NCBI GenBank assembly: GCA_944368215.1
Contig: CALVWX010000015.1
Span: 1-34,534 of the forward strand
Direction: 5' to 3'
DNA length: 34,534 nt
Origin: an uncultured Clostridia bacterium
GTDB taxonomy: Bacteria > Bacillota > Clostridia > Christensenellales > Borkfalkiaceae
Both the position numbers and the translations under genes were made by a program. The notes below the pieces were generated by a model. That model searched no databases, was not told where the DNA came from, and worked only from the letters and a program-made list of their open reading frames with translations. Positions 16,901 through 32,269 of this stretch are shown in pieces (position 1 is the stretch's first letter; each line of letters starts with the position of its first letter).

Positions 16901-17089
16901 CATAATTATGTTTTGACCCGAAACCGCGCTTTCGGGTCAAAGGCCACGATTTGCGAACCCTTTCGCCTGAGCGGGGTGAATGGGCGCAATTAAGAAAATG
17001 TAGGGCGAAATAGGATTGCGCCCAAAGGGGCGGCGCCCCTTAAATAACGGCAAGTTGGTGCATGTCCCCTAATGCACAACTTGCGTTAA
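16901..17089 (+). repeat. Structured element, copy A, upstream of smc
   Basis: In order: an 11 bp hairpin (16913-16923/16930-16940); the core CACGATTTGCGAACCC, holding a 5 bp hairpin (16953-16957/16962-16966); a 10 bp helix (16981-16990/17015-17024) capped by a long loop; a short hairpin (17027-17031/17035-17039); and a terminal helix (17045-17055/17079-17088) with a bulged G. The helix strand ends directly in the smc Shine-Dalgarno (AAGAGG, 17088-17093). The pairing is kept relative to the other four copies although many helix bases differ. Unknown family. Confidence 0.8.
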
Positions 17090-17098
17090 GAGGATATT

Positions 17099-20000
17099 AT
17101 GATTCAATTTAAATCCATCAAACTCGTCGGCTTCAAATCGTTTGCCGACCCCACGGAAATCAATCTTTCGGACGGCGTAACCTGTATCGTCGGCCCCAAC
17201 GGCTGCGGAAAAAGCAACGTTGCCGACGCCATACGCTGGGTTCTCGGCGAACAGTCGGCAAAGCAGATGCGCGGCACGCAGATGATGGACGTCATCTTCA
17301 ACGGCACTGAAAAGCGCAAAAAGATGTCGTTTTGCGAGGTTACTTTAACCTTCGACAACACTAACCGCATCTTCGATATCGACTGCGACGAGGTAGAAAT
17401 GACCCGCCGCCTTTACCGCGACGGCGAAAGCGAATATGTTTTAAACCGCCAGCCCTCGAGAATGAAGGTGTTAACCGCCCTTTTGCACGGCGCGGGCGCC
17501 GCAAAGGAAGGCTATTCAATCATCGGTCAGGGCCGTATCGCGCAGATAATGAACTCCCGCCCCGAAGAGCGCCGCTCGATATTCGAGGAAGCTACGGGTA
17601 TCATAGTTTTCAAGGACAGAAAGGCCGACGCCGAGCGCAAGCTCGCCGCCGCGCGCGACAATCTTTTTGTCTTTGTGCAGAGGATGCAGGAGGTAGAGCG
17701 CCAGCTCAACCCCCTCGCCAAGGCCGCCGAAAACGCCTTAAAATACCGCGAACTTTACTCCTCGCTCCGCCATCACGAGGTCAACACCTACATATACCGC
17801 CACGACACGGCAGAGGGCGAGCGCAGCAAGATAAACAATAAAATTTCTGCCTTCACCGACGAGATTAACAAGCTCGCCGAACAGTCGTCGTCACTCTTGA
17901 AGGAATACGACGAATGCCGCAGTCTGTTATCTTCGGCGGACGCCAAGCTCAAAACGCTGTACGACAAGCGGGTAAGCTACTCCGTCGGCATAGCCGAAAC
18001 CTCGGGCGAAAGCAAGGTGTTCAAGGAAAAAGCCAACGCAGTAAAGGCCAAGCTTCAGCAGGCGCAGGAAGACATTGCTTACTCCGCCAAGCGCATAGGC
18101 GAGATAGACAAGGAGGTGAAGAGGACGGAGGACTACGCAGGCAAAAACAACGCCCGCATACAAAACCTTACCTCCGCCTGCGACAAACTGCGCGAGGATA
18201 TAAAATCCCTCTCCGAAAGCATATCCGGCTACGAGTATATGACGGGAGAACACCGCAAAAAGGTAATGGATACCTTTAAAGACCTCTCCGACATAAAGGA
18301 GAGCATGGGTTCGCTGTCGGCCAAAAAGGAACTCATCCGCGAGCGTATAGACGAGGTGGAAGAGGCCATGGCCCGCATAAGGGAGGAGCACGCCGCGCTC
18401 AAGGCGCAGTACGACGAGGCCCTCGCCGAACAGAACAGGCTCAACGATTTGCTCGGCAGCGAAAATACCCTCGTCGCCGAAGCCGACGCCAAGGTAAAGG
18501 ACGCCGAAGAAAAGCTTCAGCACCTCATCTCCGAAATTTATTCCATACGCGCGGCCATAAATTCGCTGGGCGAAACTTTAAAGACCTATCAGGCCCTGCG
18601 CGACAGGTTTGAAGGCTACATATATTCCGTCAAGCGCCTCATGTCGGACGCGCGGGGCAACCCCGAATTAAGCAAAAAGATAATGGGCCTCATCGCCGAC
18701 GTCGTCTCCACCGACCAGCAGTACGAAGTGGCTATAGAAACGGCCTTCGGCGGCGCCATGCAGAACGTCATCACCGCCACGCGCGAAGACGCCCAGTCGC
18801 TCATATTATATCTTAAAAACAACCGCGCGGGCCAGGTCACCTTCCTGCCCGTAGACGCGCTCCGCCCCCGCTACGAAAACGAGCAGATAAAATCCGCCCG
18901 CCGCGAGCCGGGCGCCGTAGGCTTCGCCATAGACCTCGTTACCTACGATAAAAAGTTCGAAAACGTCATTCACAACCTTCTCGGCAACACGCTCATCTGC
19001 GACGATATCCGCAGCGCAACGGCAATCGCGCGCAAATATCCCCGCGCGTTCAAAATCGTCACGCTCGACGGCGACGTCATCTCAACCACGGGTTCGATGA
19101 CGGGCGGTTCGCGCAGGGAAAATTCCGCCAACCTTCTCGCCAACGAGCGCAACTTAAAGGAAATAGAAGAGCAGATAGAACAAAAGCGCTCGGCGCTCTC
19201 CCGCGCGGAGGGCAGAAAGGACGCGGCTCAGGCCGAAAAGGACAAGGCCGTCGCCGACCGCGAACAGCTGCGCGAGCGGCTTCAGAGCGCCGGCAACGAG
19301 CTGGCCGCCTGCACCCAGAAGGGCACGGGGCTTTTAGTCAACGTCACCGATAAAGAGAGCGAATACGCGGCATATTCCCAGTCCAAACGCGCGCTCGAGA
19401 GCAAGCTCGCCGAACTCGACGACCAGTTCTCGTCCACGTCCGCGGGCGCAAGTTCGCTTTCCGAACAGTCTGACAAGGCCTCTTCCGAGATGGACGATTT
19501 GTCCGTTAAATACGAAAAACTCGTCGAAGAGCGCAACGAAAAGATAGAAAAGTTAAACAACTACCAGATAGAAATGGCCTCTTTGCAGTCGGCCGTAAAG
19601 AGCAGCGGCGAAAGCGTAACCCGCCTTTCCGCCGAACGCACCGACTTAATCTCCAAAGTGGCCTCGCTCGAAGCGTTGCTGCCCAAAATGCAGTCCGAGT
19701 TCGACGACTTTTCCGATAAGGCCGCCCGCGCCGCCCTCTCCAAGGACGACCAGGCCGAACTCGACAAAATCTTAAAGTCTATCGAAGAGCTCGAGGAGAC
19801 CAAGCGCACTTTGAACGAGCGCACCGAACAGGTCAACACCGCCCGCTTAAAGACGTACGAGGACAGCGAAAAGTGCAAGGAAAAACTGCACGCAGCCGAA
19901 CTCCAGATGCAGAAAATCGACTCCGAGCTCGAAAATCTCCAGACGCGCATTTCGGAGGAATACAACCTCGATTACGAAGGCTGCCTGCAGTATAAGGAGG

Positions 20001-20698
20001 AAGGTTACGATATTTCGGGCTCTGCAAACGCCATAGCCAATTTCAAGCGTCAGCTCACCATGCTCGGCCCCGTCAACCACAACGCGGTTGAGGAGTACGA
20101 GGAAGTTTCGGCGCGCTACAACAAAATGTGTCAGGATAAGGCCGACCTTGAAAAGGGCATCGAAGATTTAACCGTCGCATTGAATGAAATACGCGACGAA
20201 ATGCTCAAAATTTTCAACGAAGGCTTCAACACCATCAACGAAAATTTCCAGCGCACATTCAAGGAACTTTTCGGCGGCGGCAGGGCGGAACTTCAGCTCG
20301 ATTACACCGACTGCGACGATCCTCTGAATGCCGGCGTTGAAATCATCGCCTCGCCCCCCGGCAAAAAGCTTTCAAAAATTTCCCTGCTTTCGGGCGGCGA
20401 ACAGGCGCTTACGGCCATCGCCATCCTCTTTGCAATAATAGCCATGCGCCCCATGCCCTTCTGCGTGCTCGACGAAATCGAAGCCGCGCTGGACGAAGCC
20501 AACGTAGGCAGGTACGCGCGCTATTTAAAGAGGTTTGCCGAAAAAACCCAGTTCATAGTCATCACCCACCGCAAGCCCACCATGGAAAATGCCGACGTTC
20601 TCTTCGGCGTAACCATGGAAGAAAAGGGCGTTTCCAAGATAGTTTCGGTCAAGATTTCCGAAGTCGAATCGAGGCTGGGCGGAGATACAGTGGCCTGA
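17099..20698 (+). CDS. smc: Chromosome segregation protein SMC
   Basis: Condensin ATPase of 1199 aa that folds and segregates the chromosome with ScpA and ScpB. The N-terminal head carries IKLVGFKSFADPTEI and Walker A GPNGCGKSN (about 32-40). Two long coiled coils flank the hinge (about 500-680, GLIADVVSTDQQYEVAIETAFGGAMQNVI...TGSMTGGSRRE). The C-terminal head has the ABC signature LLSGGEQALTAIAILFAI and Walker B PFCVLDEIEAALDEANV. The ATG has AAGAGG five bases upstream, at the tip of structured element A. ScpA and ScpB are not in the window. The order rnc-smc-ftsY is the conserved Firmicutes arrangement, here interrupted by repeat-filled spacers on both sides of smc. Confidence 0.98.
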   Translation: MIQFKSIKLVGFKSFADPTEINLSDGVTCIVGPNGCGKSNVADAIRWVLGEQSAKQMRGTQMMDVIFNGTEKRKKMSFCEVTLTFDNTNRIFDIDCDEVEMTRRLYRDGESEYVLNRQPSRMKVLTALLHGAGAAKEGYSIIGQGRIAQIMNSRPEERRSIFEEATGIIVFKDRKADAERKLAAARDNLFVFVQRMQEVERQLNPLAKAAENALKYRELYSSLRHHEVNTYIYRHDTAEGERSKINNKISAFTDEINKLAEQSSSLLKEYDECRSLLSSADAKLKTLYDKRVSYSVGIAETSGESKVFKEKANAVKAKLQQAQEDIAYSAKRIGEIDKEVKRTEDYAGKNNARIQNLTSACDKLREDIKSLSESISGYEYMTGEHRKKVMDTFKDLSDIKESMGSLSAKKELIRERIDEVEEAMARIREEHAALKAQYDEALAEQNRLNDLLGSENTLVAEADAKVKDAEEKLQHLISEIYSIRAAINSLGETLKTYQALRDRFEGYIYSVKRLMSDARGNPELSKKIMGLIADVVSTDQQYEVAIETAFGGAMQNVITATREDAQSLILYLKNNRAGQVTFLPVDALRPRYENEQIKSARREPGAVGFAIDLVTYDKKFENVIHNLLGNTLICDDIRSATAIARKYPRAFKIVTLDGDVISTTGSMTGGSRRENSANLLANERNLKEIEEQIEQKRSALSRAEGRKDAAQAEKDKAVADREQLRERLQSAGNELAACTQKGTGLLVNVTDKESEYAAYSQSKRALESKLAELDDQFSSTSAGASSLSEQSDKASSEMDDLSVKYEKLVEERNEKIEKLNNYQIEMASLQSAVKSSGESVTRLSAERTDLISKVASLEALLPKMQSEFDDFSDKAARAALSKDDQAELDKILKSIEELEETKRTLNERTEQVNTARLKTYEDSEKCKEKLHAAELQMQKIDSELENLQTRISEEYNLDYEGCLQYKEEGYDISGSANAIANFKRQLTMLGPVNHNAVEEYEEVSARYNKMCQDKADLEKGIEDLTVALNEIRDEMLKIFNEGFNTINENFQRTFKELFGGGRAELQLDYTDCDDPLNAGVEIIASPPGKKLSKISLLSGGEQALTAIAILFAIIAMRPMPFCVLDEIEAALDEANVGRYARYLKRFAEKTQFIVITHRKPTMENADVLFGVTMEEKGVSKIVSVKISEVESRLGGDTVA

Positions 20699-20701
20699 AG
20701 A

Positions 20702-20890
20702 TTAACGCAAGTCTTGGCTGGCGACGCCTGCGACTTGCCGTTAGTTTTGGAGGCCAGCCTCCATTGCCGCGATATTTTAAGCGCCCACGATTATATAATC
20801 GCGGCAATTTCCTCCGCTGAGGCGAAAGGATTCGCAAATTGGGTCTGCTGCGGGGAAATGAATTCCCCTTGCATCGCAATTAATAAAATC
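20702..20890 (-). repeat. Structured element, copy B, just after smc
   Basis: Inverted copy whose 3' end (TTAACGC on the plus strand) begins three bases after the smc stop. Plus-strand coordinates of the helices: terminal helix 20703-20712/20733-20743 with the bulged G, variable hairpin 20749-20753/20758-20762, long helix 20763-20773/20798-20808, core hairpin 20822-20826/20831-20835, and 5' hairpin 20852-20857/20863-20868. If read through from smc it would be transcribed as the antisense. Confidence 0.8.
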
Positions 20891-21116
20891 GCTCGCGTCG
20901 TGCGGTAGCGCTCCGCGCAGCGAAGGTAATTCTGTCGGGCAACGCTTAACGGCAGAAGTCAATTCCGCCTGCGTTGCCTCGGCGTTATTTATGCGCTTGC
21001 GCAGAATGAGACTTTTTCTTTTGTCATACTGAGCGTAGTCGAATGTATCTGGCGGGGCGATTGCCACGCCGACAAAAGAAAAAGACAAGTTATTGTTTAA
21101 GCAAGCTATTGTAATA
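20891..21116. other. Gene-free stretch between elements B and C
   Basis: Part of a 729-base gene-free region (20699-21427). I see no protein gene here. At 20948-20955/20969-20975 there is an AACGGCAG...CTGCGTT hairpin with the same bulged G as the terminal helix of the structured elements, possibly a decayed sixth copy. A left-half TGTCATACTGAGC repeat lies at 21022-21050, inside a larger inverted repeat. Confidence 0.55.
21012..21084. repeat. 14 bp perfect inverted repeat enclosing a half TGTCATACTGAGC unit
   Basis: CTTTTTCTTTTGTC at 21012-21025 is the exact reverse complement of 21071-21084. The 45-base interval between the arms carries the rest of a left-half TGTCATACTGAGC repeat (21022-21050), whose first bases are shared with the left arm. 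Confidence 0.7.
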
Positions 21117-21417
21117 TAAATAATGTTTCCACCCGAAACTGCGTTTCGGGTGGAAGGCCCCCATTTGCGGACCCTTTCGTTCTCGGCGACCGCAATGAGG
21201 GCGGCCGCCTCGGTCACCGCATCGGACAATATGATGTCCTCGCTTACCTCGCAAGGCAAAACAGCACATTGTGCTGTTTTGAGAATACCTTGCTCGTCTC
21301 AGCGGGGCGAAGGCGCACAATTATATAATCGGGGGCCATTAAAAATTGTGCGCCGAGGGGCTGGCCCCTTAAATAACGGCAAGTGGATGGCTTCGGCCAA
21401 GACACCACTTGCGTTAA
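21117..21417 (+). repeat. Structured element, copy C, upstream of ftsY, with an internal insertion
   Basis: 5' hairpin 21127-21138/21144-21155 (12 bp), core CCCATTTGCGGACCC, then about 117 extra bases (21180-21296) where the other copies have the second arm of the core hairpin. The element resumes at CTCAGC with an 11 bp long helix (21312-21322/21344-21354), whose loop holds TATATAATCGGGGGCC. A variable hairpin follows (21357-21360/21365-21368), then the terminal helix (21374-21384/21407-21416) with bulged G. The ftsY Shine-Dalgarno starts in its last bases. Confidence 0.8.
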
Positions 21418-21421
21418 GGAG
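21416..21421 (+). promoter_or_regulatory. Ribosome binding site that fixes the ftsY TTG start
   Basis: AAGGAG at the end of structured element C, six bases before a TTG at 21428. The next in-frame start upstream (GTG at 21383) would place the element's terminal helix inside the protein. Confidence 0.8.
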
Positions 21422-21427
21422 TATCTT

Positions 21428-22324
21428 TTGGGTATATTTTCAAAAATAGCCGGTGCGCTCAAAAAAACGCGCGAAGCATTGGGCGGCGCGCTCGGCGCGC
21501 TGTTCGCAAAAAATAAAATAGGCGACGAATTTTACGAAGAACTCGAGGAAATTTTAATCTCCTCCGACATATCCCTCGGCACCGCCGAAGAGGTCGTCGA
21601 CGAAATCCGCGCCGAAGTCAAGCAGGAAAAATTAAAGGACAAGGACTACATAGTCGACCTTTTAAAGGACGTTCTTGAGGAAAAGCTGACCGAGGCCGAA
21701 GTGCCCAAGCTCGAATATCCCGCCGTCATAATGCTCGTCGGCGTAAACGGCGTCGGCAAAACTACAACCGTCGGCAAGCTGGCAAACTACTTTTTAAAAC
21801 AGCATAAGTCCGTAACGGTTGCCGCGGCCGATACCTTCCGCGCCGCCGCGAGCGACCAGCTGACCGTTTGGGCGGAAAGGGCAAAAGTGCGCATCGTCAA
21901 GCACGAGGAAGGCAGCGACCCTTCGGCCGTCGTCTTCGACGCGCTCTCGTCTGCCAGGGCGAGGGGCACCGACGTAGTCATAATCGATACGGCCGGCCGC
22001 CTTCACGTAAAGGCAAATTTAATGGAAGAGCTCAAAAAAATGGACCGCGTAGTCAGGCGCGAATGTCCTTCTGCGCACTTCTATAAGCTGCTCGTGCTCG
22101 ACGCGACGACGGGCCACAACGCCGTCAATCAGGCGCGCGTTTTCGACGAGGCAATCGAGCTCGACGGCATAGTTTTAACCAAGCTCGACGGCACCGCAAA
22201 GGGCGGCTTCGTAATTTCGCTCTGCTCCGAGCTCGGCATACCCGTTATGTTTGCGGGCGTGGGTGAAAAGCTTGAAGATATCGAGCTGTTCGACCCCGAA
22301 GAATTTATCGACAATATTTTCTGA
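21428..22324 (+). CDS. ftsY: Signal recognition particle receptor FtsY
   Basis: SRP-family GTPase that receives Ffh-nascent-chain complexes at the membrane. From the TTG at 21428 the product is 298 aa and starts MGIFSKIAGALKKTREALGGALGALF, the usual basic amphipathic FtsY N-terminus. The N domain is about 20-90 and the G domain follows: G1 GVNGVGKTTTVGKLA, the insertion-box region DTFRAAASDQL, G3 DTAGR and G4 TKLDGTAKGG, ending in the family's GVGEKLEDIELFDPEEFIDNIF. A longer reading from GTG at 21383 adds 15 residues encoded by a hairpin and is rejected. A DUF2500 gene follows after 10 bases. Confidence 0.96.
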   Translation: MGIFSKIAGALKKTREALGGALGALFAKNKIGDEFYEELEEILISSDISLGTAEEVVDEIRAEVKQEKLKDKDYIVDLLKDVLEEKLTEAEVPKLEYPAVIMLVGVNGVGKTTTVGKLANYFLKQHKSVTVAAADTFRAAASDQLTVWAERAKVRIVKHEEGSDPSAVVFDALSSARARGTDVVIIDTAGRLHVKANLMEELKKMDRVVRRECPSAHFYKLLVLDATTGHNAVNQARVFDEAIELDGIVLTKLDGTAKGGFVISLCSELGIPVMFAGVGEKLEDIELFDPEEFIDNIF

Positions 22325-22334
22325 TGAGGAGAGA

Positions 22335-22712
22335 ATGATGCCCGGCAATTTTGCAGTAATTTTTTATATTTTTATGGCGATTTTCATCGTCATGTTTCTC
22401 TTTATCGCGTCGGTTACCATTATTTCACTGCGCAGGGGAATAAAGGCTGAACGCAGAAACGATAAATCGCCCCGTCTTACCGTGCGGGCAAAGGTTGCGG
22501 CCAAGCGCGAACATGTATGGTATAACCGCCGCACTTCTTCGCGAATGTCCGGCAGGTCGGAGTACTTTGTTACGTTCGAAGTGGACAGCGGCGACAGAAT
22601 GGAACTTTCCGTCGACGGCGCGGAATACGGCATGCTGGTCGAAGGCGATTCAGGCAGCCTGACTTTTCAGGGAACACGCTTTCTCAATTTTGAAAGGGAT
22701 ATGCAAAAATGA
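22335..22712 (+). CDS. DUF2500 domain-containing membrane protein
   Basis: A 125 aa protein of unknown function. Residues about 5-32 form one membrane segment (FAVIFYIFMAIFIVMFLFIASVTIISL). The remainder is a soluble domain matching DUF2500: KSPRLTVRAKVAAKREHVWYN, YFVTFEVDSGDRMELSVDGAEYGMLVEGDSGSLTFQGTRFLNFER. The start is one of two tandem ATGs (22335 or 22338) after GAGGAGA. The end overlaps the acetyltransferase start by four bases (ATGA). It probably belongs to the ftsY transcription unit. Confidence 0.85.
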   Translation: MMPGNFAVIFYIFMAIFIVMFLFIASVTIISLRRGIKAERRNDKSPRLTVRAKVAAKREHVWYNRRTSSRMSGRSEYFVTFEVDSGDRMELSVDGAEYGMLVEGDSGSLTFQGTRFLNFERDMQK

Positions 22713-23263
22713 CAGAAAAGCAAAAAATGCTCGCGGGCGAGCTCTACTGCGGGTGCGACGACCCCGAGCTTGCAAGCATGCACAGGCGTGCAATCGAACT
22801 GTGCGAAAAACTCAATTACGGCAATCTTTCCGATGAGGAGCGCGATAGCGTCACGCGGCAACTTTTGGGCAAATGCGGGCATAAGGCCGTGTTGGGGCGC
22901 GGCTTCTGGTGCGATTACGGCGTCAATATTGAAGTCGGCGAAAATTTTTACGTCAATTACGGCGTAGTCATTCTGGACGTGTGCAAGGTCACCATAGGCA
23001 AAAACTGCCTTATTGCCCCGCAGGTCGGCATATACACCGCCTGCCACCCCTTGGAGGAAGACGTGCGCATTTCGGGACTGGAGATGGGCAAACCAATAAC
23101 CATAGGCGACAACTGCTGGATAGGCGGCCACGCCGTAATCAATCCGGGCGTCACCCTCGGCGACAACGTCGTTGTGGGCAGCGGCTCGGTGGTGACAAAA
23201 TCCTTTCCTTCGGATGTGGTTATTGCCGGCAACCCCGCGCGCATAATCAAATATCTTAAGTAA
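22709..23263 (+). CDS. Maltose/galactoside O-acetyltransferase family protein
   Basis: Left-handed beta-helix acetyltransferase of 184 aa that would transfer acetyl from acetyl-CoA to a sugar hydroxyl. The N-terminal Maa domain reads MTEKQKMLAGELYCGCDDPELASMHRRAIELCEKLN. Hexapeptide repeats run from about 75 to the end (VEVG-, ITIGDNCWIGGHAVINPGVTLGDNVVVGSGSVVTKSFPSDVVIAGNPARIIKYL). The catalytic His lies in YTACHPLEEDVR. The exact sugar cannot be told; maltose O-acetyltransferase is the usual database name. It overlaps DUF2500 by 4 bp and ends just before a small hairpin with a T-run. Confidence 0.9.
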   Translation: MTEKQKMLAGELYCGCDDPELASMHRRAIELCEKLNYGNLSDEERDSVTRQLLGKCGHKAVLGRGFWCDYGVNIEVGENFYVNYGVVILDVCKVTIGKNCLIAPQVGIYTACHPLEEDVRISGLEMGKPITIGDNCWIGGHAVINPGVTLGDNVVVGSGSVVTKSFPSDVVIAGNPARIIKYLK

Positions 23264-23270
23264 ACGGCAA

Positions 23271-23290
23271 AGGCGCAGGTTGCGCTTTTT
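23271..23290 (+). terminator. Weak terminator-like hairpin between the acetyltransferase and the NifX-like gene
   Basis: A 5 bp GC stem (23273-23277 with 23281-23285), extendable to 7 bp, has a three-base loop and is followed by TTTTT. It ends immediately before the AGGAGG of the next gene, so it may be partial or act as an attenuator. Confidence 0.45.
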
Positions 23291-23306
23291 GAATAGGAGG
23301 TATCAT

Positions 23307-23711
23307 ATGAAGATAGCGGTTACTTACGAAAACGGAAACGTGTTTCAGCACTTCGGCCATACCGAACAGTTCAAGGTATATGAAGTCGAAGGGGGAAAGG
23401 TAGTTTCCTCTCAGGTCATAGGAACAAACGGCACTGGCCACGGCGCGCTTGCAACTCTGCTTGCGGACCTCGGCGTGGATACGCTCATCTGCGGCGGAAT
23501 AGGCGGCGGCGCTCAGGCCGCCCTTGCGCAGGCGGGAATAAAACTCTACGGCGGTGTTTCGGGCAGTGCGGACGGCGCGGTGAAAGATTTGCTTTCGGGC
23601 GATCTCGGCTACGACCCCGACGTGCATTGCGACCATCACGGCGAAGGCCACGGTGAGGGACACTCCTGCGGCCACGGTCAATCCAAATGCGGCGGTCACA
23701 ACTGCAACTGA
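23307..23711 (+). CDS. NifX/NifB-type dinitrogenase cofactor-domain protein with His/Cys-rich tail
   Basis: A 134 aa protein. Residues 1-105 match the NifX/NifB (dinitrogenase iron-molybdenum cofactor) fold: MKIAVTYENGNVFQHFGHTEQFKVYEV, and GVDTLICGGIGGGAQAALAQAGIKLYGGVSG. The last ~25 residues are rich in His, Cys and Gly (CDHHGEGHGEGHSCGHGQ...CGGHNCN), a likely metal-binding tail. No nitrogenase genes are present; stand-alone members occur widely in anaerobes and are thought to carry iron-sulfur or other metal clusters. The start is ATG 23307, six bases after AGGAGG (23295-23300); a TTG at 23280 gives nine extra residues without ribosome binding support. Confidence 0.88.
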   Translation: MKIAVTYENGNVFQHFGHTEQFKVYEVEGGKVVSSQVIGTNGTGHGALATLLADLGVDTLICGGIGGGAQAALAQAGIKLYGGVSGSADGAVKDLLSGDLGYDPDVHCDHHGEGHGEGHSCGHGQSKCGGHNCN

Positions 23712-23730
23712 AAAACGGCAAAAAATAATT

Positions 23731-23761
23731 AAGCGGCGGCCCTTGCAAAGGGCCGCCGCTT
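23731..23761. terminator. Hairpin terminator between convergent genes
   Basis: A perfect 14 bp stem (23731-23744 with 23748-23761). On the minus strand it is followed by AATTATTTTTTG, a usable T-tract, so it would end the rubrerythrin operon. On the plus strand the tail is weaker (TCTGTTCC). Confidence 0.7.
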
Positions 23762-23797
23762 CTGTTCCTTACGCAAATTTTACGGTAAGGTATGTAA

Positions 23798-25300: not shown

Positions 25301-25309
25301 GGCGAGAGG

Positions 25310-25915
25310 TTACATTGTTGCGCTTTTTATGTATTGGGCGAGCGCGGGAATAATGGATTTTATGTTTACGTTGGTGGTGTTAAGCATAAGCTCGTACCCG
25401 TTTTTATCTCCCCACGGCAGGGTGCCCAAAAGGTCGTGCAGCTTTTTTCTGCCGCCGTCTATTTCCTTGAAGCGCCTCAGCATCTGCTTGTCGGTGTAGT
25501 GTTCGCCGTCGTGCTCGCGGGCGCGGCAACGCGCAATTTTGCTGGCATTGTCGGCATATACGAATATGCGGAAGGGCTTCATTTCCTTTAAAATTACGTC
25601 TGCGGAGCGCCCGACTATAACGCAGTTGCCCTTGGCTCCCACGGCCTTGATAATTTTCTGCTGCGCCACAAGCACGTCGGTCACGGGTGCGGGCGTGGCT
25701 GAAACGAGAGGCATGCTCCTTCCGAATGTAAAGGCGTAATTGCGGAAGCCGCCGCTTTCCAGAACGGAGGAGACGTACCCTTCGTTCAGGTCGGTGTGTT
25801 CGGCGATTTCGGTCACCAGTTCTTTGTCATAATATTGCAGTCCCAGCTCGTCTGCAAGGCGTTTGCCAACTTCCCTGCCGCCGCTGCCGAACTGTCTCGA
25901 TACTGTTATAATCAT
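25310..25915 (-). CDS. Cytidylate-kinase-like family protein
   Basis: A 201 aa P-loop protein of the cytidylate-kinase-like group (PF13189 type). It starts MIITVSRQFGSGGREVGKRLADELGLQYYDKELV, a P-loop related to that of CMP kinase. GNCVIVGRSADVILKE and FRIFVYADNASKIARCRARE are the family's conserved second half. The true substrate is not established; these proteins are distinct from the Cmk of nucleotide synthesis. AAGGAG lies six bases before the ATG, and a near-consensus promoter is upstream. It is a monocistronic unit between its own promoter and terminator. Confidence 0.85.
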   Translation of the reverse strand: MIITVSRQFGSGGREVGKRLADELGLQYYDKELVTEIAEHTDLNEGYVSSVLESGGFRNYAFTFGRSMPLVSATPAPVTDVLVAQQKIIKAVGAKGNCVIVGRSADVILKEMKPFRIFVYADNASKIARCRAREHDGEHYTDKQMLRRFKEIDGGRKKLHDLLGTLPWGDKNGYELMLNTTNVNIKSIIPALAQYIKSATM

Positions 25916-25963
25916 CTTTTTCTCCTTATATGCATGCGCAAAAAACAGCGCTTATTCATTATT

Positions 25964-25991
25964 ATTATACCATCGATTTTGCGTTCGTCAA
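25964..25991 (-). promoter_or_regulatory. Promoter for the cytidylate-kinase-like gene
   Basis: On the minus strand: -35 TTGACG at 25991-25986, a 16-base spacer, and perfect -10 TATAAT at 25969-25964. Confidence 0.82.
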
Positions 25992-26013
25992 GGGGTCAGT
26001 TTTTATTTTCAGG

Positions 26014-26211
26014 TCATTGTTTGCGTAATAATTCATCGCAACTTATGCCAAAAAAATCGGCGAGTAATATTATATACGAAGCTTTGGGTTCATTTGTTCC
26101 GTGTTCCCAGTAATCTATTGCCTTTTGGCTTACACCTATTTCCTTTGCCAACTCTGCTTGTGTAAGTCCGCGCTCCAATCTCAGTTCCTTTATGTTTGCT
26201 CCTATATTCAT
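26014..26211 (-). CDS. XRE-family helix-turn-helix repressor
   Basis: A 65 aa single-domain regulator (MNIGANIKELRLERGLTQAELAKEIGVSQKAIDYWEHGTNEPK...). The helix-turn-helix is LTQAELAKEIGVSQKAIDYWE, typical of Cro/C1-type proteins, with no sensor domain. It is divergent from a lipoprotein gene, and the spacer between them holds three palindromic AAGAAG-N4-CTTCTT sites, the likely operators. There is no Shine-Dalgarno before the ATG; a TAAAAT on the minus strand at 26223-26218 could place the transcript start at or next to the ATG (leaderless), though the -35 is poor. This block is AT-richer than its surroundings. Confidence 0.88.
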   Translation of the reverse strand: MNIGANIKELRLERGLTQAELAKEIGVSQKAIDYWEHGTNEPKASYIILLADFFGISCDELLRKQ

Positions 26212-26222
26212 GCATATATTTT

Positions 26223-26298
26223 AGAAGAAATCTTCTGATATATCTTGACAAAGAAGAAAACTTCTTATATAATAATGTAAATAAGAAGTTAACTTCTT
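26223..26298. promoter_or_regulatory. Three-site operator array for the XRE repressor
   Basis: Palindromes AGAAG-AAAT-CTTCT at 26223-26236, AAGAAG-AAAA-CTTCTT at 26251-26266 and AAGAAG-TTAA-CTTCTT at 26283-26298, with centres 29 and 32 bases apart, about three helical turns. The first lies just upstream of the XRE start; the other two lie in and just after the lipoprotein promoter. Confidence 0.85.
26245..26273 (+). promoter_or_regulatory. Consensus promoter of the lipoprotein gene, overlapped by the operator
   Basis: Perfect -35 TTGACA (26245-26250), a 17-base spacer, and perfect -10 TATAAT (26268-26273). The second operator palindrome (26251-26266) fills the spacer almost exactly, so repressor binding would exclude RNA polymerase. 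Confidence 0.9.
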
Positions 26299-26319
26299 AA
26301 AAAATTCAGGAGGAAAAAT

Positions 26320-26796
26320 ATGAAAACAAAAAAATTTATTATTGCCATGATTTTGGCGATAGTAACAGCGCTTGTGTGTCCGGTTCTGGTTGCATGCAAC
26401 TCGTCGTCTGATGATACGGCCGTATATAAATATGAATCGTTGACATGCGATATGTCCGGACAATATTCGGTGATGCAGTCGCAGATGGAGTCTATGTATA
26501 AATCGCTCTATGGGGATAGCTTGGCTTACTTCAAAGATGGGATTTTTTACTGGGAGACATCGTCGGGTCAGGTAAATAAAACGGCTTACACAAAAAAGGG
26601 TGACAGATATCTACTCTCTGATACGGGTATGGAAGTGCCGTCAGAATCTGCGCAAATGACAGTTCGTGTCGAATCTTATGTTACGTACGATCAGTCATCT
26701 CTACAAATTGTTTGTACACAGTATGTAAACGATAGCGTATATATGGTTCTTACTGTTAACTATACTGTTCAGCAAGCTGAAGAAGGTGAGGTTTGA
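26320..26796 (+). CDS. Small lipoprotein of unknown function under XRE control
   Basis: A 158 aa predicted lipoprotein: signal MKTKKFIIAMILAIVTALVCPVLVAC with the lipid-modified Cys at 26, then a polar domain rich in Ser, Tyr, Thr and Val (GIFYWETSSGQVNKTAYTKKGDRYLLSDTGMEVP, LQIVCTQYVNDSVYMVLTVNYTVQQ), probably beta-rich. I do not recognise a family. AGGAGG lies six bases before the ATG. Codon usage is noticeably more AT-rich than in the surrounding genes, and with its divergent XRE regulator it looks like a recently acquired cassette. Confidence 0.75.
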   Translation: MKTKKFIIAMILAIVTALVCPVLVACNSSSDDTAVYKYESLTCDMSGQYSVMQSQMESMYKSLYGDSLAYFKDGIFYWETSSGQVNKTAYTKKGDRYLLSDTGMEVPSESAQMTVRVESYVTYDQSSLQIVCTQYVNDSVYMVLTVNYTVQQAEEGEV

Positions 26797-26805
26797 TAAT
26801 AATAA

Positions 26806-26840
26806 TAAAACAGCTGCCTCATATTGCGGCAGCTGTTTTA
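26806..26840. terminator. Bidirectional terminator between the lipoprotein gene and radA
   Basis: A 13 bp stem (26806-26818 with 26828-26840) with A-rich and T-rich flanks that can serve both convergent genes. Confidence 0.85.
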
Positions 26841-26858
26841 ATTTATTATGAAGGGTGC

Positions 26859-28229
26859 TCAGTTTTCGTTTTTGAACAGCATTTTTATCATGGAGTTGAC
26901 GTAAAGCACGGGCACAATGCTGATTTTGTCGGCGTATTTTGCCACCGACTTCATGTTTTTGGCGGGCAGGATTACGCGTTTGAATCCCATCTTCACGCAC
27001 TCCTGCACGCGCTTTTCGGCGTATGAAACGGCCCTTACTTCGCCCGTTAAGCCCACTTCGCCGAACACGGCCGTGTATTTGTCTATGGGTACGTCGCACT
27101 GCGCCGAAGCCAGCGCCGCGCATACGGCCAGGTCGCAGGCGGGTTCGTTTAATTTTATGCCGCCCATGACGTTTATGTATACGTCGGACGACCACAGGGG
27201 TACCGAGCAGCGCTTTTCCAGAACGGCTATTAAAAGCACGAGCTTGTTGTAGTCTATTCCCAGCGGCATTCTGCGCGGCTGGCCGAATGACGATTTGGAA
27301 ACGAGCGCCTGAACTTCCACGTTCATGCACCTGTTGCCCGTCTGCGCGGGCGTAACGGCGCAGCCGGCCTCCTGACCGCGGCTTTCGGAAAGGAATATCC
27401 CCGAATAATCAGTCACGGCTATAATGCCTTCGCCCGTCATCTCGAACACGCCCACTTCAGAAACATTGCCGAATCTGTTCTTTACGGCCCGCAGTATGCG
27501 GTAGTTTTCCTGATTTTCGCCCTCAAAGTACAGCACGGTGTCCATAATGTGTTCAAGCACTTTGGGGCCCGCCAGCGCGCCCTCTTTGGTGACGTGGCCG
27601 ACTATGAAAAAAGTAATTCCGCGGCTCTTCGCTATGCGCATAAGCTTGGTTGCGCACTCGCGCACCTGCCCGACGGAGCCTGCGGAAGAGGTTAAATCGT
27701 CCGTGTACACGGCCTGAATGGAGTCTATTATGCAGAACTTAACGCCGTCAAGCTCGTTTTCGAGGTTGTCGATGCACGTATCGTTGACAATCATAAAGTC
27801 CTCGCACTCGAGCTTTAACCTCTCGGCGCGCATTTTAACCTGCGAACAGCTCTCCTCGGCCGAAAAGTACAGAACGCGGTTATTAAGCGACAGGTGTGCG
27901 GCAATCTGCGTGAGGAGAGTCGATTTGCCAATGCCCGGGTCGCCGCCCAAAAGCACTAAAGAGCCCGCAACTATGCCTCCGCCGAGGACGGTGTCGAATT
28001 CCGAAATTCCGCTCGGCGTGCGGTCGTACCGCTCGAATCTGACGTCCTTAAGCTTTGTCGCGCGCGGCGCCGAATACACCGACGGGCGGGAGGAGGGAGC
28101 GGATTTTTCCTGTTTTACCGCCTCCTCGGCCATGGTATTGAATTTGCCGCACGAAGGGCACCTGCCCAGCCATCTCGGGCTGGTCGCGCCGCACTCCGCA
28201 CAGACGAAAATAGTACTGTTTTTTGGCAT
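26859..28229 (-). CDS. radA: DNA repair protein RadA (Sms)
   Basis: RecA-like helicase that promotes branch migration in recombination. At 456 aa it is of normal length. The N-terminal zinc finger has Cys10, Cys13, Cys24 and Cys27 (CAECGATSPRWLGRCPSC). Walker A is GGDPGIGKSTLL, the RadA-specific motif KNRFG is present (RAVKNRFGNVSEVGVFEM), and the C-terminal ~170 residues are the Lon-protease-like domain (VYINVMGGIKLNEPACDLAVCAALASA). The ATG at 28229 has a strong AGGAGG five bases upstream, which directly continues the 3' end of structured element D. Confidence 0.97.
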   Translation of the reverse strand: MPKNSTIFVCAECGATSPRWLGRCPSCGKFNTMAEEAVKQEKSAPSSRPSVYSAPRATKLKDVRFERYDRTPSGISEFDTVLGGGIVAGSLVLLGGDPGIGKSTLLTQIAAHLSLNNRVLYFSAEESCSQVKMRAERLKLECEDFMIVNDTCIDNLENELDGVKFCIIDSIQAVYTDDLTSSAGSVGQVRECATKLMRIAKSRGITFFIVGHVTKEGALAGPKVLEHIMDTVLYFEGENQENYRILRAVKNRFGNVSEVGVFEMTGEGIIAVTDYSGIFLSESRGQEAGCAVTPAQTGNRCMNVEVQALVSKSSFGQPRRMPLGIDYNKLVLLIAVLEKRCSVPLWSSDVYINVMGGIKLNEPACDLAVCAALASAQCDVPIDKYTAVFGEVGLTGEVRAVSYAEKRVQECVKMGFKRVILPAKNMKSVAKYADKISIVPVLYVNSMIKMLFKNEN

Positions 28230-28238
28230 AAAACCTCC

Positions 28239-28425
28239 TTAACGCACGTTGGTGCGTTGGCGGCAACGCACCAACGTGCCGTTATTTGAGCGCCATGCGC
28301 TCTTGCCGCGATTTGTTTTGGCCCTCGATTAAATAATCGCGGCAATTCACTATGCTGAGGCGAAAGGGTTCGCAAATTGTGGCTTGCTGCGCGAAGGCGC
28401 GACTTCGCTTGCAACGTATTTTAAT
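28239..28425 (-). repeat. Structured element, copy D, between ispDF and radA
   Basis: Fills the radA-ispDF spacer on the minus strand, so it would be the radA leader. Plus-strand coordinates: terminal helix 28240-28249/28274-28284 with bulged G, extended inward by a further GTTGGTGCGTTG pairing; variable hairpin 28288-28293/28297-28302; long helix 28303-28312/28336-28345; core hairpin 28360-28364/28369-28373; 5' hairpin 28391-28396/28403-28408. The 3' end runs straight into the radA Shine-Dalgarno. Confidence 0.82.
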
Positions 28426-28442
28426 GCGCCGTTGGCGCGAAT

Positions 28443-29582
28443 TTATAGCTTTTCCAACAGCACAACAGCCAAAGCTTCAATGCCCAGTCCGCGGCCTACA
28501 AATCCCAGTTTTTCGCATGTGCCCGCGCTCACGCCTACGCGGTTCGTTTCCACGCCCAGCGCGGAGGCGAGGGTGGCCTGCATTTTGTCTATGTGCGGCG
28601 CAAGCCGGGGCTTTTCTGCGCGTATGGTCACGCCGGCGTTTACAGGCGCATATCCGCGCTCCTTTATAAGATGGACAACCCTTTCAAGCAGCTTCATGCT
28701 GTCCGCGCCGCAATATGCGGGGTCGGTGTCGGGGAAGTAGTGCCCTATGTCCTTGAGTCCCGCCGCCGAAAGCAGCGCGTCCATCAGGGCGTGCACGGGA
28801 ACGTCGCCGTCGCTGTGGGCTATAAGCCCGCAACTGTGCTCAATCTTCACGCCGCAAAGGGTGATAAACGGCTGTTCTTTTCCGAAGGCGTGAATGTCCG
28901 CGCCTATGCCAACGGCCTGGCCTTCCGCCGCGTTCAATGCGGGATATCCCCGCATGAAATCGCTTTTATAAGTAAGTTTAATGTTGTCGCGGCTGCCTTC
29001 GCATATTGCGGGCTGCCCAATATAACGGCGGTATACCGCGCTGTCGTCGGTAAAAGTTCCTCCGTCGCGCATCGCCTGCTCGTATGCTCGCAGGATATCC
29101 TGCGTAAAGAATGCCTGCGGCGTCTGCAGGGCGAAAAGGGCGGAGCGGTCGGGCACGCCGTCGATATTTCCGCCGTGCGACATTGCAATCGTGTCGGTTA
29201 CGGGCACGGCGCAGATGCCCGACCTGTTGCGTTCAACGCTGCATATACAGCCGTCAATGATCTCTTTGGTCACAAAGGGGCGCGCGCCGTCGTGTATGAG
29301 CGCTATGTCTCCCGTGCATGCCTTCAAGGCGTTATAAACGCTTTCGGTGCGCGTTTTTCCGCCCTCAACCGTCTTATATCCGAACGGCGCGCACAGCGCG
29401 GCAATTTCTTCGCGGTCGGCCTGCGAACAGGCCACTATAACTTCGTCAATTTCTGGCAGGTCGAACGCCTGCAGGGTATGAAAGAGCGCGGGGGCTCCGT
29501 AGAGGGGGGCGAGCAGTTTGTTTTTGGCAAAACCCGCTCTCTCGCCCCTGCCCGCCGCGCAGATTACAGCGCTTATTTTCAT
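28443..29582 (-). CDS. ispDF: Bifunctional IspD-IspF fusion enzyme
   Basis: Fusion of 2-C-methyl-D-erythritol 4-phosphate cytidylyltransferase (residues about 1-225) and 2-C-methyl-D-erythritol 2,4-cyclodiphosphate synthase (about 226-379), steps three and five of the non-mevalonate isoprenoid pathway. IspD motifs: ICAAGRGERAGFAKNKLL (nucleotide loop), GGKTRTESVYNAL, IHDGARPFVT, TPQAF. IspF motifs: GIGADIHAF (metal ligands D and H), LCGVKIEHSCGLIAHSDGDVPVHALMDALLSAAGLKDIGHYFPDTD, and the C-terminal EKLGFVGRGLGIEALAVVLL. Its start overlaps the end of the PII-like gene by 4 bp, so it is the last gene of the DUF1538 operon. Confidence 0.95.
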   Translation of the reverse strand: MKISAVICAAGRGERAGFAKNKLLAPLYGAPALFHTLQAFDLPEIDEVIVACSQADREEIAALCAPFGYKTVEGGKTRTESVYNALKACTGDIALIHDGARPFVTKEIIDGCICSVERNRSGICAVPVTDTIAMSHGGNIDGVPDRSALFALQTPQAFFTQDILRAYEQAMRDGGTFTDDSAVYRRYIGQPAICEGSRDNIKLTYKSDFMRGYPALNAAEGQAVGIGADIHAFGKEQPFITLCGVKIEHSCGLIAHSDGDVPVHALMDALLSAAGLKDIGHYFPDTDPAYCGADSMKLLERVVHLIKERGYAPVNAGVTIRAEKPRLAPHIDKMQATLASALGVETNRVGVSAGTCEKLGFVGRGLGIEALAVVLLEKL

Positions 29583-29953
29583 TGTGCGTCCTTGTTTTCC
29601 TGCGTCTGTTCTTCTGCGGCCGCATCGGCGGGAACGGGTGGAGTTGTTCCGCTCAGGCCGACGACGTCGTCCACCGCCATGGAAAAGGCTATGCCCTGGC
29701 CTTCGGTTTTAAGTCCCGCGTTGCGGTACAGCGCGTGTAAAACGGTGTCCTTTATGTCGGCGGGGACTAAAATCATCACAATTTCCTTTTCGGGCTGAAT
29801 GGTTATGTGGAAGAACTTTTCGGCCTCCTTGTTGGCCGTTCCGCGCGCATGTATAACCGTGCCGCCGCGCGCTCCCGCCTCCTTGGCTGCGTCCATTACC
29901 AAATCGGAAAAACCTGCGTTTACAATGCAGAATACTACCTCGTATGCGGACAT
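29579..29953 (-). CDS. PII-like signalling protein, second of a tandem pair
   Basis: A 124 aa protein with a ferredoxin-like PII fold: VVFCIVNAGFSDLVMDAAKEAGARGGTVIHARGT, FHITIQPEKEIVMILVPADIKDTVLHALY, GQGIAFSMAVDDVVGL. GARGGTVIHARG replaces the T-loop start of canonical GlnB, and no uridylylated Tyr is evident, so this is a divergent PII-like subgroup rather than GlnB. The C-terminal ~25 residues are acidic and disordered. It sits one base after the other PII-like gene and overlaps ispDF. The DUF1538 membrane protein upstream is the likely partner. Confidence 0.82.
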   Translation of the reverse strand: MSAYEVVFCIVNAGFSDLVMDAAKEAGARGGTVIHARGTANKEAEKFFHITIQPEKEIVMILVPADIKDTVLHALYRNAGLKTEGQGIAFSMAVDDVVGLSGTTPPVPADAAAEEQTQENKDAQ

Positions 29954-29954
29954 G

Positions 29955-30398
29955 TCACTTTTCCTCCTTTACTACCGATTTATTGTTGCTCAGAAATCCG
30001 AATATGAGCGCGCCTATCACGCTGGTAAGCGGAATGGTAAAGGCTATGCCTTTGCCGTCCTTAACCGTTTTGAACTTATTGTCGAGCACGTACAGCGCGT
30101 CGGGCAGCCTGTTTGACTGTACAACCGAAAGTATGACGCTCTTGCTCGTGTCCGTAAGGCCTAAATATTTAAGCATGTTTGCGTCCGCCGTGCCCTCGGC
30201 GAGCACCACGGCCTGCAGGTTGACGTCGAAAGACTGAATGAGGTCGGCGTAAAATTCCGTCTTGCTCCTGTTGACCACGGTAACCAGCAGTTTAAGCGGG
30301 TTTGCCGTAACTGTATTTGTCTTGGGCGAAGGCGCCGCCGCTTTGGAGCTCTTTGCAAGCCTGCGCTTCAGCCTGCCTTTTAACTGATTTTCTGCCAT
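29955..30398 (-). CDS. PII-like protein, first of a tandem pair, with basic N-terminal extension
   Basis: A 147 aa protein. Residues 1-33 are basic and disordered (LKGRLKRRLAKSSKAA). Residues about 34-135 resemble the PII fold (PLKLLVTVVNRSKTEFYADLIQSFDVNLQAVVLAEGTAD, KSVILSVVQSNRLPDALYVLDNKF, GKGIAFTIPLTSVIGALI) but are more diverged than the following gene product. It starts after TAAGGAGCG, 12 bases past the DUF1538 stop. A heterotrimer with the neighbouring PII-like protein is possible; that is inference. Confidence 0.7.
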   Translation of the reverse strand: MAENQLKGRLKRRLAKSSKAAAPSPKTNTVTANPLKLLVTVVNRSKTEFYADLIQSFDVNLQAVVLAEGTADANMLKYLGLTDTSKSVILSVVQSNRLPDALYVLDNKFKTVKDGKGIAFTIPLTSVIGALIFGFLSNNKSVVKEEK

Positions 30399-30410
30399 GT
30401 CTCGCGCTCC

Positions 30411-31961
30411 TTATTTAAAGTAAATAATCTGTTCGTCGTCCGCGGCGAGTATGCGCTTTAAGGTAATCTTTTCGCGCACTTTTGCCGCCGTCACGGCCTT
30501 GAAGCCGAGGAGCTGAATGGTTATAAGTGGGGTCATGGCCACCATCGCCACGACGCCGAATGCAAGGTTATATATGTTTGAATTTCCCGAGGCTACTTCG
30601 CACGCGCCCACCACAAGGGGGAGGATAAAACTCGAAGTCAGCGGGCCGCTGGCCACGCCGCCGGAGTCGAATGCTATCGCTGTGTATATCCTCGGCACGA
30701 AGAAGGAGAGGCCGAGCGATATCAGGTAACCGGGGATTAAATAGTACAGAATGGAGAACTGATATATTACCCTTATTATCGAAAGCCCTATGGATATGCC
30801 CACGGCAATCGAAAGCGCAAGCATCATCTCAAGCTTTTTTACTCCGCCGCCCGTAATCTCTTCAACCTGTTTGTTGAGGACGTGCACGGCGGGTTCGGCG
30901 AGTACTACGACAAGGCCGATTACAAAGCCGAAAACTATAGTCAGCGGCTGGCTGTATGAGGCCAGCTCTTCGCCTATCTTAAAGCCTATGGGCATGAATC
31001 CCGCCTCTACCGAGGTGAGGAATATTACAAGCCCCACGTATGTATAAGCTATGCCTATGGCAATCTGTATAAGCTTGCCCTTGGGCAGTTTTAGCATGGT
31101 AACCTGCAGTATTGTAAAGAATACCACTATCAGCCCGAGCGCAAGCGCAACGTCGCCTAATTTTCCCAAAAGCAGGTCGGCAAATCCGCTGCCGCTGAGC
31201 ACGTGCGAGATGTCGTAAATTGAAGTATCGTAAGTGGCGGGGTTGCCGTTGCCCATCAGCGCAAGTATCATGACTGCGATTATGGGGCCGACCGAGCAAA
31301 GCGCCACGAGGCCGAACGAGTTTTCGCTGGCGTTTCTGCCGCCCACCGTCGCCGCAATGCCCACGCCGAGCGCCATTATAAAGGGCACGGTTATGGGGCC
31401 CGTCGTAACGCCGCCGGAATCGAAGGAGAGGGGTATGAGCTCAAATTTTCCCTGCTCGGCCATCACCGCGCAAACGGCGAACAGCATGAGGTAAAAGAAC
31501 ATTATCAGCATCGAAAGTTCTTTGTGGAAAATTATTTTAAGGACGGCTATCACAAGGAATATTCCCACGCCCACGCCAACGGTGACGATAAGCAGCGTGC
31601 TGCCCACGTCGGCGCCGCCGGGCATAATGTCCTTCACCTGATTGGCAAGCACGGTGAGGTCGGGTTCGGCAATGGTGATGAATAAGCCCATTATAAAACA
31701 CACCGCCACGACTATCCACAACTTTTTGGACTTTGTCAGGCCCGAGCCCATCTGTTCGCCCATGGGCGTCATTGCAAGGTCAGCGCCGAGGTTGAACAGC
31801 GCAATGCCCACAATCAGCCCTATGGCCGAAATTATGAAGGCCGTCGTCTCCGTGCCGGTAAGGCTGGCCGCGGGCGTGAATGACAATATCAGCACGATAA
31901 GCGTCACGGGGGCGACCGAAATGACGGCCTCCTTGAGTTTTGAAAGTAAAATTTTAAGCAT
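30411..31961 (-). CDS. DUF1538 integral membrane protein
   Basis: A 516 aa polytopic membrane protein with about 12 hydrophobic segments. It is an internal duplication of two ~250-residue halves: the motif FDSGGVTTGPITVPFI near residue 180 recurs as FDSGGVASGPLTSSFI near 430, and the region around LFNLGADLAMTPMG also has a counterpart. Paired helix-breaking DSGG motifs are reminiscent of transporters or channels, but no substrate is established. It heads an operon with two PII-like genes and ispDF. PII proteins often gate transporters, so PII control of this protein is the simplest model. A weak AAGG precedes the ATG. Confidence 0.85.
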   Translation of the reverse strand: MLKILLSKLKEAVISVAPVTLIVLILSFTPAASLTGTETTAFIISAIGLIVGIALFNLGADLAMTPMGEQMGSGLTKSKKLWIVVAVCFIMGLFITIAEPDLTVLANQVKDIMPGGADVGSTLLIVTVGVGVGIFLVIAVLKIIFHKELSMLIMFFYLMLFAVCAVMAEQGKFELIPLSFDSGGVTTGPITVPFIMALGVGIAATVGGRNASENSFGLVALCSVGPIIAVMILALMGNGNPATYDTSIYDISHVLSGSGFADLLLGKLGDVALALGLIVVFFTILQVTMLKLPKGKLIQIAIGIAYTYVGLVIFLTSVEAGFMPIGFKIGEELASYSQPLTIVFGFVIGLVVVLAEPAVHVLNKQVEEITGGGVKKLEMMLALSIAVGISIGLSIIRVIYQFSILYYLIPGYLISLGLSFFVPRIYTAIAFDSGGVASGPLTSSFILPLVVGACEVASGNSNIYNLAFGVVAMVAMTPLITIQLLGFKAVTAAKVREKITLKRILAADDEQIIYFK

Positions 31962-32265
31962 ATTCGTTTACCTTATATGGTTAAGTTACTTAAATGATAT
32001 TGCGCTATGAATGGCGCTGCAACTTAAATGAATTGCGGCATATTGCCGCAATTCATTGCCTGTGCAACTTGCGATACAATAAAGAAAAATAACGTCGCAA
32101 GGGGAATTCATTTCCCCGCCAGCGGCCACAATTTGTTGCGGCCAGCAACCTCAGCGGTGGGAATTGCCACGACTATATTATAATAGGCTATATAAGGTCG
32201 CGGCAATGGCGGCAGAGCCGCCAAAAATAACGGCAAATCGCAGCCGCCTCAAGGCAAGATTTGCG
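31962..32265. other. Gene-free spacer upstream of the DUF1538 operon
   Basis: Holds a 13 bp hairpin (32028-32040 with 32044-32056, GAATTGCGGCA/TGCCGCAATTC) and structured element E. The DUF1538 promoter should lie here on the minus strand, but I see no clear match. Confidence 0.6.
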
Positions 32266-32269
32266 TTAA
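32089..32269 (+). repeat. Structured element, copy E, ending across the stop of the RqcP-like gene
   Basis: 5' hairpin 32101-32106/32112-32117; core CACAATTTG; core hairpin 32135-32139/32145-32149 (GTTGC/GCAAC, replacing GCGAA/TTCGC of other copies); long helix 32163-32173/32197-32207 (one A-C mismatch); variable hairpin 32208-32213/32217-32222; terminal helix 32228-32238/32259-32268 with bulged G. Its last TTA at 32266-32268 is the stop codon of the minus-strand RqcP-like gene. Confidence 0.8.

Follow-up and report, generated by a model that had tools for sequence, protein, structure and literature searches.

The DNA analysed here is a window of 34,534 nucleotides (nt) from an uncultured Clostridia bacterium of the family Borkfalkiaceae (contig CALVWX010000015.1, assembly GCA_944368215.1). 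It contains five copies, named A to E, of a folded repeat made of five helices (P1 to P5), and the genome to which it belongs (G000) carries about 60 such repeats, dispersed between genes. These repeats probably constitute an apparently undescribed, non-autonomous, modular, and hairpin-rich family of about 185 nt, comparable to BOX elements and to miniature inverted-repeat transposable elements (MITEs), whose range covers one genus plus a diverged sister genus. Our results show that the right end of the element, i.e., P5, tends to lie at a coding boundary while the left end can fall anywhere; that the helices are kept as near-perfect Watson-Crick palindromes; and that several species carry a copy at some of the same boundaries, the copies concerned being for the most part not mutual closest relatives.

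The genome of origin is a draft of 1.67 Mb in 46 contigs, 92% complete. An alignment (A1) of 27 of its copies, with A, B, D, and E in the set, served to build a covariance model, R1, of 188 positions and 31 pairs. At E<=0.001, blastn with copy A gave 45 matches in this genome and R1 gave 75, some of them fragments, so that the number of five proposed by the initial annotation does not describe the family. On 55 sequences of the same genome (206,665 bases), R1 gave 72 matches, all five window copies included. The positions proposed for these five copies were essentially those recovered by R1; A, B, D, and E, as seeds of the model, match by construction, and C, which is not a seed, was still recovered. 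The proposed helix order was also found in all five (P1 hairpin, core, P2, P3, P4, P5). The core is indeed present but is not uniform (E has TTTGTTGCGGCCAGCAACCTCAGC, A has CCTGAGC), and it contains a covarying hairpin, P2; in the same way, the terminal helix exists in every copy but not with the proposed sequence in E, whose ends are TAACGGCAAAT/ATTTGCGTTA. The length is 175-200 nt in 47 of the best 54 matches of the genome, and the long forms (>200 nt) are due to inserts: in copy C, the P2 loop hosts another repeat of ~115 nt (21180 to about 21296), which brings the total to 301 nt. High in copy number, dispersed, non-coding, and under about 200 nt, the family has the properties of small interspersed repeats.

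Among the 41 sampled genomes of the genus, own genome included, 38 have R1 matches, from 0 to 64 in each; about 63 candidates were scored per genome, so the high counts are to be read as "at least". Copies from other genomes, outside model building, are matched by R1 with E-values down to 2e-64. At the level of the order, 8 of 151 genomes were matched, i.e., 3/3 of the same genus, 4/5 of the sister genus (best scores of 24.8 to 46 bits), 0/1 of another genus of the family, and one weak match in the remaining 142. Using copy A alone, blastn matched 21 of 61 relatives, every one of them in the genus. An exact 23-mer of the core was found in three uncultured Clostridia metagenome-assembled genomes of the GTDB collection (two labelled "Lapin"), a collection from which near relatives may be missing, and in zero IMG/VR contigs. 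Blastn with copy A likewise found nothing in phage and plasmid records, and these two negative results rule against a phage or plasmid origin. The initial annotation could not relate the element to a known family, and this holds against Rfam: the whole window has no match at the gathering threshold, and six loci searched at E<=1 gave a transfer RNA (tRNA) and one sub-threshold match, both off the elements. A literature search found no description of the family, subscription papers and supplementary tables being outside its reach; palindromic candidate RNAs from the human microbiome are reported in PMC8040213.

The strongest feature of the family, which the initial annotation did not report, is the polarity of its right end. 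Genes were called by a small codon-usage script giving approximate starts, and distances were taken for the best 58 hits of the own genome, corresponding to 56 elements (two long forms being split in two); none of the 58 lies in a called gene. When the right neighbour is convergent (25 hits), its stop codon, counted from the last base of the element, falls at -4 to +12 nt in 23 cases, and exactly at -4 in ten of these 23, where the TAA stop falls in the last bases of the element. Two of the 23 (L024, L028) have their P5 replaced by another palindrome. Of the two hits that depart from this pattern, one (L019) is the upstream member of a tandem pair and the other (L021) is split by an insert. 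When the right neighbour is co-directional (31 hits), the called start is found 8-28 nt downstream in 13, of which 9 are at 8-11 nt, and most of these near hits are directly followed by GGAG or GAGG. The left end, for its part, is within 12 nt of a stop in 2/31 cases and of a start in 1/26, so that right and left ends differ strongly at stops (23/25 versus 2/31, Fisher p 2.5e-11). The five window copies illustrate both situations. The right end of A precedes the start codon of smc (NCBIfam TIGR02168) by 9 nt, that of C precedes the likely TTG start of ftsY (21428; ftsY by NCBIfam) by 10 nt, and that of D is at a ribosome-binding site, 9 nt upstream of the start codon of radA (by NCBIfam); the right end of B lies 3 nt after the smc stop codon (TGA AGA / TTAACG), and the terminal TTAA of E holds the TAA stop (32266-32268, minus strand) of the converging gene 32266-32583.

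The same polarity was observed in five other genomes of the genus, using 43 of 45 hits, pooled and picked from the best-scoring R1 hits, with a left neighbour located for 33 of the 43. The right end is within 12 nt of a convergent stop in 19/26 cases, and within 30 nt in 11/16 co-directional ones; the left end is within 12 nt of a stop in 1/22 (an overlap artefact) and of a start in 0/11 (right versus left at stops, p 1e-6). In these genomes, the element often ends in ...GTGAA and supplies no stop codon; each of the 19 genes with a close right end has its own stop, located 0-11 nt outside the element. Stop donation therefore does not explain the position. This one-ended placement at stops and ribosome-binding sites, found in six genomes of one genus, is open to comparative testing. 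We also considered, as a tentative and rather unlikely proposal, that P5 could be targeted to the edges of translated regions by a new mechanism of target choice, acting within a few bases of natural stops or at ribosome-binding sites. Such targeting could use single-stranded DNA or RNA hybrids exposed at gene edges, with one P5 arm either pairing with the target or copied from it. The case cited for it is that of glmM (by NCBIfam) in L011, where both the ribosome-binding site (AAGGAGG) and the start codon (GTG, 1685) of the gene fall in the right arm of P5 (1670-1689), and where 18 nt of this arm (AGGAGGCACTTTTGTGAA) are repeated left of the element.

The genes flanking A to E are syntenic in relatives, which allows one to compare orthologous sites. 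Between rnc and smc, 3 of 14 relatives have R1 matches (two in G031; one each in G002 and G016, right before smc), G027 retains P5 alone, and the 10 others have no match, G029 being read across a contig break. Between smc and ftsY, matches are found near the ftsY start in G031 and G016, and none between the genes in G062, G029, G036, G026, and G028; upstream of radA, none of the seven relatives examined has a copy. At the site of copy E, the G029 copy belongs to another subtype and is in the same -4 phase; no element is found in G001, which reads ATA ATC TGA where the window reads ATA ATT TAA / CGC, nor in G062, and G036 shows, by eye, only a remnant. We extended this comparison to 22 further boundaries sought in five relatives (73 matched places, 60 surrounding regions scanned). 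For 8 of the 22 (L013, L016, L027, L065, L066 twice, L067, L068), one or more relatives have a copy there in the same orientation, and most of these 8 boundaries lack it in another relative. By eye, the stop position is shared with relatives for L003 and L023, and is one codon earlier for L026. The same-site copy is the closest match in only 1/11 comparisons (identity over aligned columns, gaps excluded). Hence, a boundary can persist while the body of the element is replaced, through either a new insertion or an exchange among copies. In some relatives, ...CGTTAA is present at or near the same stop with no R1 match (e.g., G062:C43, G062:C1, G029:C119).

These sites bear on the possibility that P5 is a hairpin used by the host, as a terminator or as an mRNA-stabilising or processing hairpin, in the manner of repetitive extragenic palindromes (REPs) and bacterial interspersed mosaic elements (BIMEs), so that selection rather than insertion would set its position. 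The placement of P5 right at stops and ribosome-binding sites would fit such a role, as would the presence of the reverse strand of the copy D P5 among terminator-like sites and the finding, reported in PMC12306157, that translation is lowered by E. coli REPs lying less than 16 nt from a stop. We nevertheless hold it to be unlikely, since orthologous genes in relatives are often devoid of the element and since the number of T among the 8 nt following P5 on the reverse strand is on average 3.02 at stops (42 cases), 3.00 at starts (24), and 3.09 elsewhere (32). The absence of any T-tract difference between positions led us to reject selection for terminators at stops.

The initial annotation had read the copies as a structured element, and this reading is strengthened by copies of five other genomes, in which the helices are retained. 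In A1, standard pairs occupy 96.3% of cells and 22 of 30 pairs show two-sided changes; in A3, an alignment of 45 copies from G002, G006, G014, G016, and G062 that were found and aligned with the model and thus lean to R1, these values are 98.3% and 23/31. For both alignments, none of 500 shuffles reached the paired-cell share or the covariation score, nor, in A3, the count of pairs changed on both sides; one measure out of five, the count of pair types, did not exceed shuffles in A3 (393/500 as high). The pairs are of a particular kind. Leaving aside 50 gapped pairs, the best 54 copies of the own genome contain 801 G-C, 770 A-T, 19 G-T, 9 A-C, and 25 other pairs. G-T wobble pairs thus represent 19/1,590 standard pairs in the elements (1.2%) versus 44/577 (7.6%) in the tRNAs of the same genome (Fisher p 4e-13), tRNAs being an imperfect control for wobble and RNAalifold having picked the pairs from own-genome copies; 30 of 32 tRNA matches were used, i.e., 27 distinct tRNAs. 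A3 has 31 G-U cells, of which 29 are concentrated in one column pair, adjoining the extra G of P5. G-T and A-C mismatches are both rare; therefore, neither strand looks privileged. This near-absence of wobble suggests that the hairpins are maintained as DNA and not as regulatory RNA. The arms of inverted repeats are said in PMC8604942 to be homogenised by template switching, and such a process would explain paired changes without wobble steps. The family would then be an apparently clean case of hairpin arms co-evolving as DNA, and a warning for the discovery of structured RNAs, in which covariation alone need not mean RNA.

The same data weigh on the second proposal of the initial annotation, a conserved regulatory RNA, which is not supported. 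If genes such as smc, ftsY, and radA were preceded by a classical cis-regulatory leader or riboswitch, this could account for the strong covariation and for the position of A, C, and D directly before ribosome-binding sites. However, the elements occur in both gene orientations, being antisense to the right neighbour in 25 of the 56 hits that have one (B and E included); the neighbouring genes are unrelated; orthologous genes often lack the element; Rfam gives no match; and wobble pairs are nearly absent. No constant location on the same strand upstream of a conserved gene set was found, and we regard this reading as largely refuted and very improbable.

The proposal of a mobile palindromic element fared better. 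It is supported by the dispersed high copy number, the sites that vary between species, the tandem copies found as well as back-to-back ones, the nesting, and the narrow range, from which we infer movement itself. An enzyme supplied in trans, with hairpin DNA as its substrate, would move or copy the elements. P5 would be the joining end, making gene edges recurrent targets, and the arms would stay identical via single-stranded hairpin processing or intrastrand template switching. Insertions would be retained because P5 provides a stop codon or else spares the stop and the ribosome-binding site. Effects on expression through hairpins in 5' or 3' untranslated regions, if any, would be secondary.

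Which enzyme could act on these hairpins was approached through three protein domains. A REP or IS200-IS605 type element mobilised by a Y1 (HUH) transposase would agree with the hairpin ends and with the extra base in the P5 stem, comparable to that of IS605 hairpins. It would also agree with the own genome carrying an apparently intact Y1_Tnp gene. IS200-type Y1 transposase genes are indeed present at L045:812-1342 (apparently intact) and L046:1402-1854 (broken). On the contrary, Y1_Tnp is found in 12/41 genomes of the genus but in only two (G000, G028) of the 11 that have at least 30 R1 matches; it was not found in the copy-rich G002 (63 matches), G014, G016, G030, and G062, several of which are drafts where the gene may be missed. 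As copy number is not tracked, we rejected the IS200 or REP-associated tyrosine transposase (RAYT) as mover and judge this origin to be very unlikely. Mobility through RNA, by a group II intron, a retron, or another reverse transcriptase acting in trans, would suit a structured unit. It is disfavoured, to the point of being extremely improbable, by RVT_1, which has no match in the own genome and is matched in 15/41 genomes of the genus, including 2 of the 11 copy-rich ones; a reverse transcriptase was thus rejected as mover. TnpB was rejected as well, its domain being weakly matched in 4/41 genomes and over the cut-off in 0/41.

The ends of the element were also examined. TAACG is present at the left in some copies and CGTTA at the right, and the foot of P5 is TAAC/GTTA or TCAC/GTGA; a mixing test between P1 and P5 classes gave mixed combinations, with classes too rough to use. 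A direct repeat of the own right end (18-47 nt) is found just left of the element in 6/54 copies (L012, L026, L075, L070, L006, L011). Such a repeat was counted if it scored above the right ends of all other copies, which L075 and L006 did by one point only. The own right end ranked first in 11/54, the other five scoring 12 or less, and some of the six repeats are plain tandem duplications.

Several points weigh against a mobile repeat with its right end at gene edges. The other 48 of the 54 copies have no flanking repeat of that size. No transposase is linked to the family, the candidates tried being Y1, RVT_1, and TnpB, with DDE transposases and recombinases outside the search; and no autonomous copy was seen, though no systematic search for one was made. 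There is no clean empty site, intergenic divergence among relatives barring a direct reading of target duplication, and one genome was sampled per species, so that present mobility is a matter of inference. Concerning polarity, 18 of the 31 co-directional right ends of the own genome are separated from the called start by 58-419 nt. For at least five of these 18, the hit is split or truncated or the start is miscalled (L077, L078, L011, and the left half of both L018 and copy C). In the five other genomes, 7/26 convergent hits lie 108-640 nt from the stop, and all these distances depend on script-made gene calls with approximate starts.

Positions of the repeat copies and of the helices of copy A in the window
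Feature	Position	Strand	Remarks
Copy A	16900..17089	+	Full element; R1 seed, 196.7 bits
P1 hairpin of copy A	16912..16941	+	Long perfect class; alignment A1, inner six pairs counted
P2 small hairpin of copy A	16954..16965	+	Within the conserved core; alignment A1
P3 long helix of copy A	16981..17024	+	Apical region AT-rich; 10 pairs, two-sided changes in 7
P4 GC hairpin of copy A	17025..17041	+	Length varies from copy to copy; alignment A1, left out of pair counts
P5 terminal helix of copy A	17045..17088	+	5' arm with one extra G; sets the right end
Copy B	20702..20886	-	R1 seed, 163.4 bits
Copy C	21115..21417	+	Long form split by insert; two R1 matches (21115-21216, 21266-21417), not an R1 seed
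Second repeat (~115 nt) in P2 loop of copy C	21180..21296	+	Read by eye
Copy D	28239..28426	-	R1 seed, 179.7 bits
Copy E	32083..32269	+	R1 seed, 157.3 bits

The elements are associated with other repeats. The one nested in copy C also exists in L018, between and across the R1 matches 1052-1207 and 1254-1355; it carries a AAAACAGCAC..GTGCTGTTTT hairpin, and a related sequence is found left of the L029 copy, near 1431. In L021, L077, and L078, P4 is interrupted by another repeat, with GACGAACAA near its start, and in L024, L028, and L104 a different palindrome family, with an end like TACGACTTGAGCGA, also abuts stops, its end taking the place of P5. Paired elements lie back to back at L008:1310-1685 and L162:92-479, their left ends 7-9 nt apart and their right ends outward. 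Intergenic runs of very short hairpins, with spacers like GTGAAAT or AATTCATG, were seen in L084 (G062) and L085-L086 (G029), and resemble tiny iterated palindromes. In the window, the direct repeats at 5460-5516, 5625-5681, and 21031-21058, which contain GCGCAGTCGAATGTATC, are a separate dispersed repeat. A promoter-like TTGCCG/TATAAT is located inside copy E (32206-32177, minus strand), directed toward a UmpA/UmpB-like gene at 30411-31961 (NCBIfam scores below cut-offs).

We know of no settled cause for palindromic repeats at stop codons. Integron attC sites possess a terminal imperfect hairpin with an extra base and form head-to-tail arrays. These sites are approached by the TAAC...GTTA terminal hairpin with its extra base and by the head-to-tail placement of some copies; here, however, the outer bases depart from the attC core consensus, and the copies are dispersed rather than arrayed (no integrase search was made). 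The foot of REPs is of the GTAG type, and neither this foot nor mobilisation by Y1 was found for the family. It resembles REPs and BIMEs as extragenic palindromes near the ends of open reading frames but differs by its five-helix unit of about 185 nt, whose copy number the Y1 transposase does not track, REPs being described in PMC3733652 as palindromes of 20-40 bp. According to an earlier study cited in PMC12306157, a significant proportion of E. coli REPs follow the nearest open reading frame by 1-20 nt, and the count given in PMC12306157 itself is of 446/4,072 within 15 nt of a stop. With MITEs such as ERIC, Correia, and RUP (features partly after PMC3049150), the family shares its non-coding, palindromic, intergenic, and multi-copy nature, but no pair of terminal inverted repeats with a target duplication could be shown and no parent insertion sequence was found.

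The closest known kind is that of the pneumococcal BOX elements, a likeness of architecture and position that rests on the description given in PMC3049150. According to this source, one S. pneumoniae genome contains 125 BOX elements, dispersed, modular, and highly folded. Among 58 coding sequences that overlap a BOX, the overlap is located at the extreme 3' end in 36, where the BOX encodes the stop and where truncation is not strongly indicated; the authors consider BOX as non-autonomous parasitic elements. The family shares with them, as described there, a dispersed, modular, and folded organisation, a length that depends on modules, the overlap with stop codons, and a narrow taxonomic range. 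Terminal inverted repeats and target duplications are reported for BOX in the same paper and are not established here. Unlike what it describes for BOX, the polarity observed in the present family belongs to one end and includes sites directly before ribosome-binding sites. Stop-adjacent palindromes are thus known from BOX and from some E. coli REPs, but their placement is sharper here, it concerns a single end of the element, and it extends to both stops and ribosome-binding sites.

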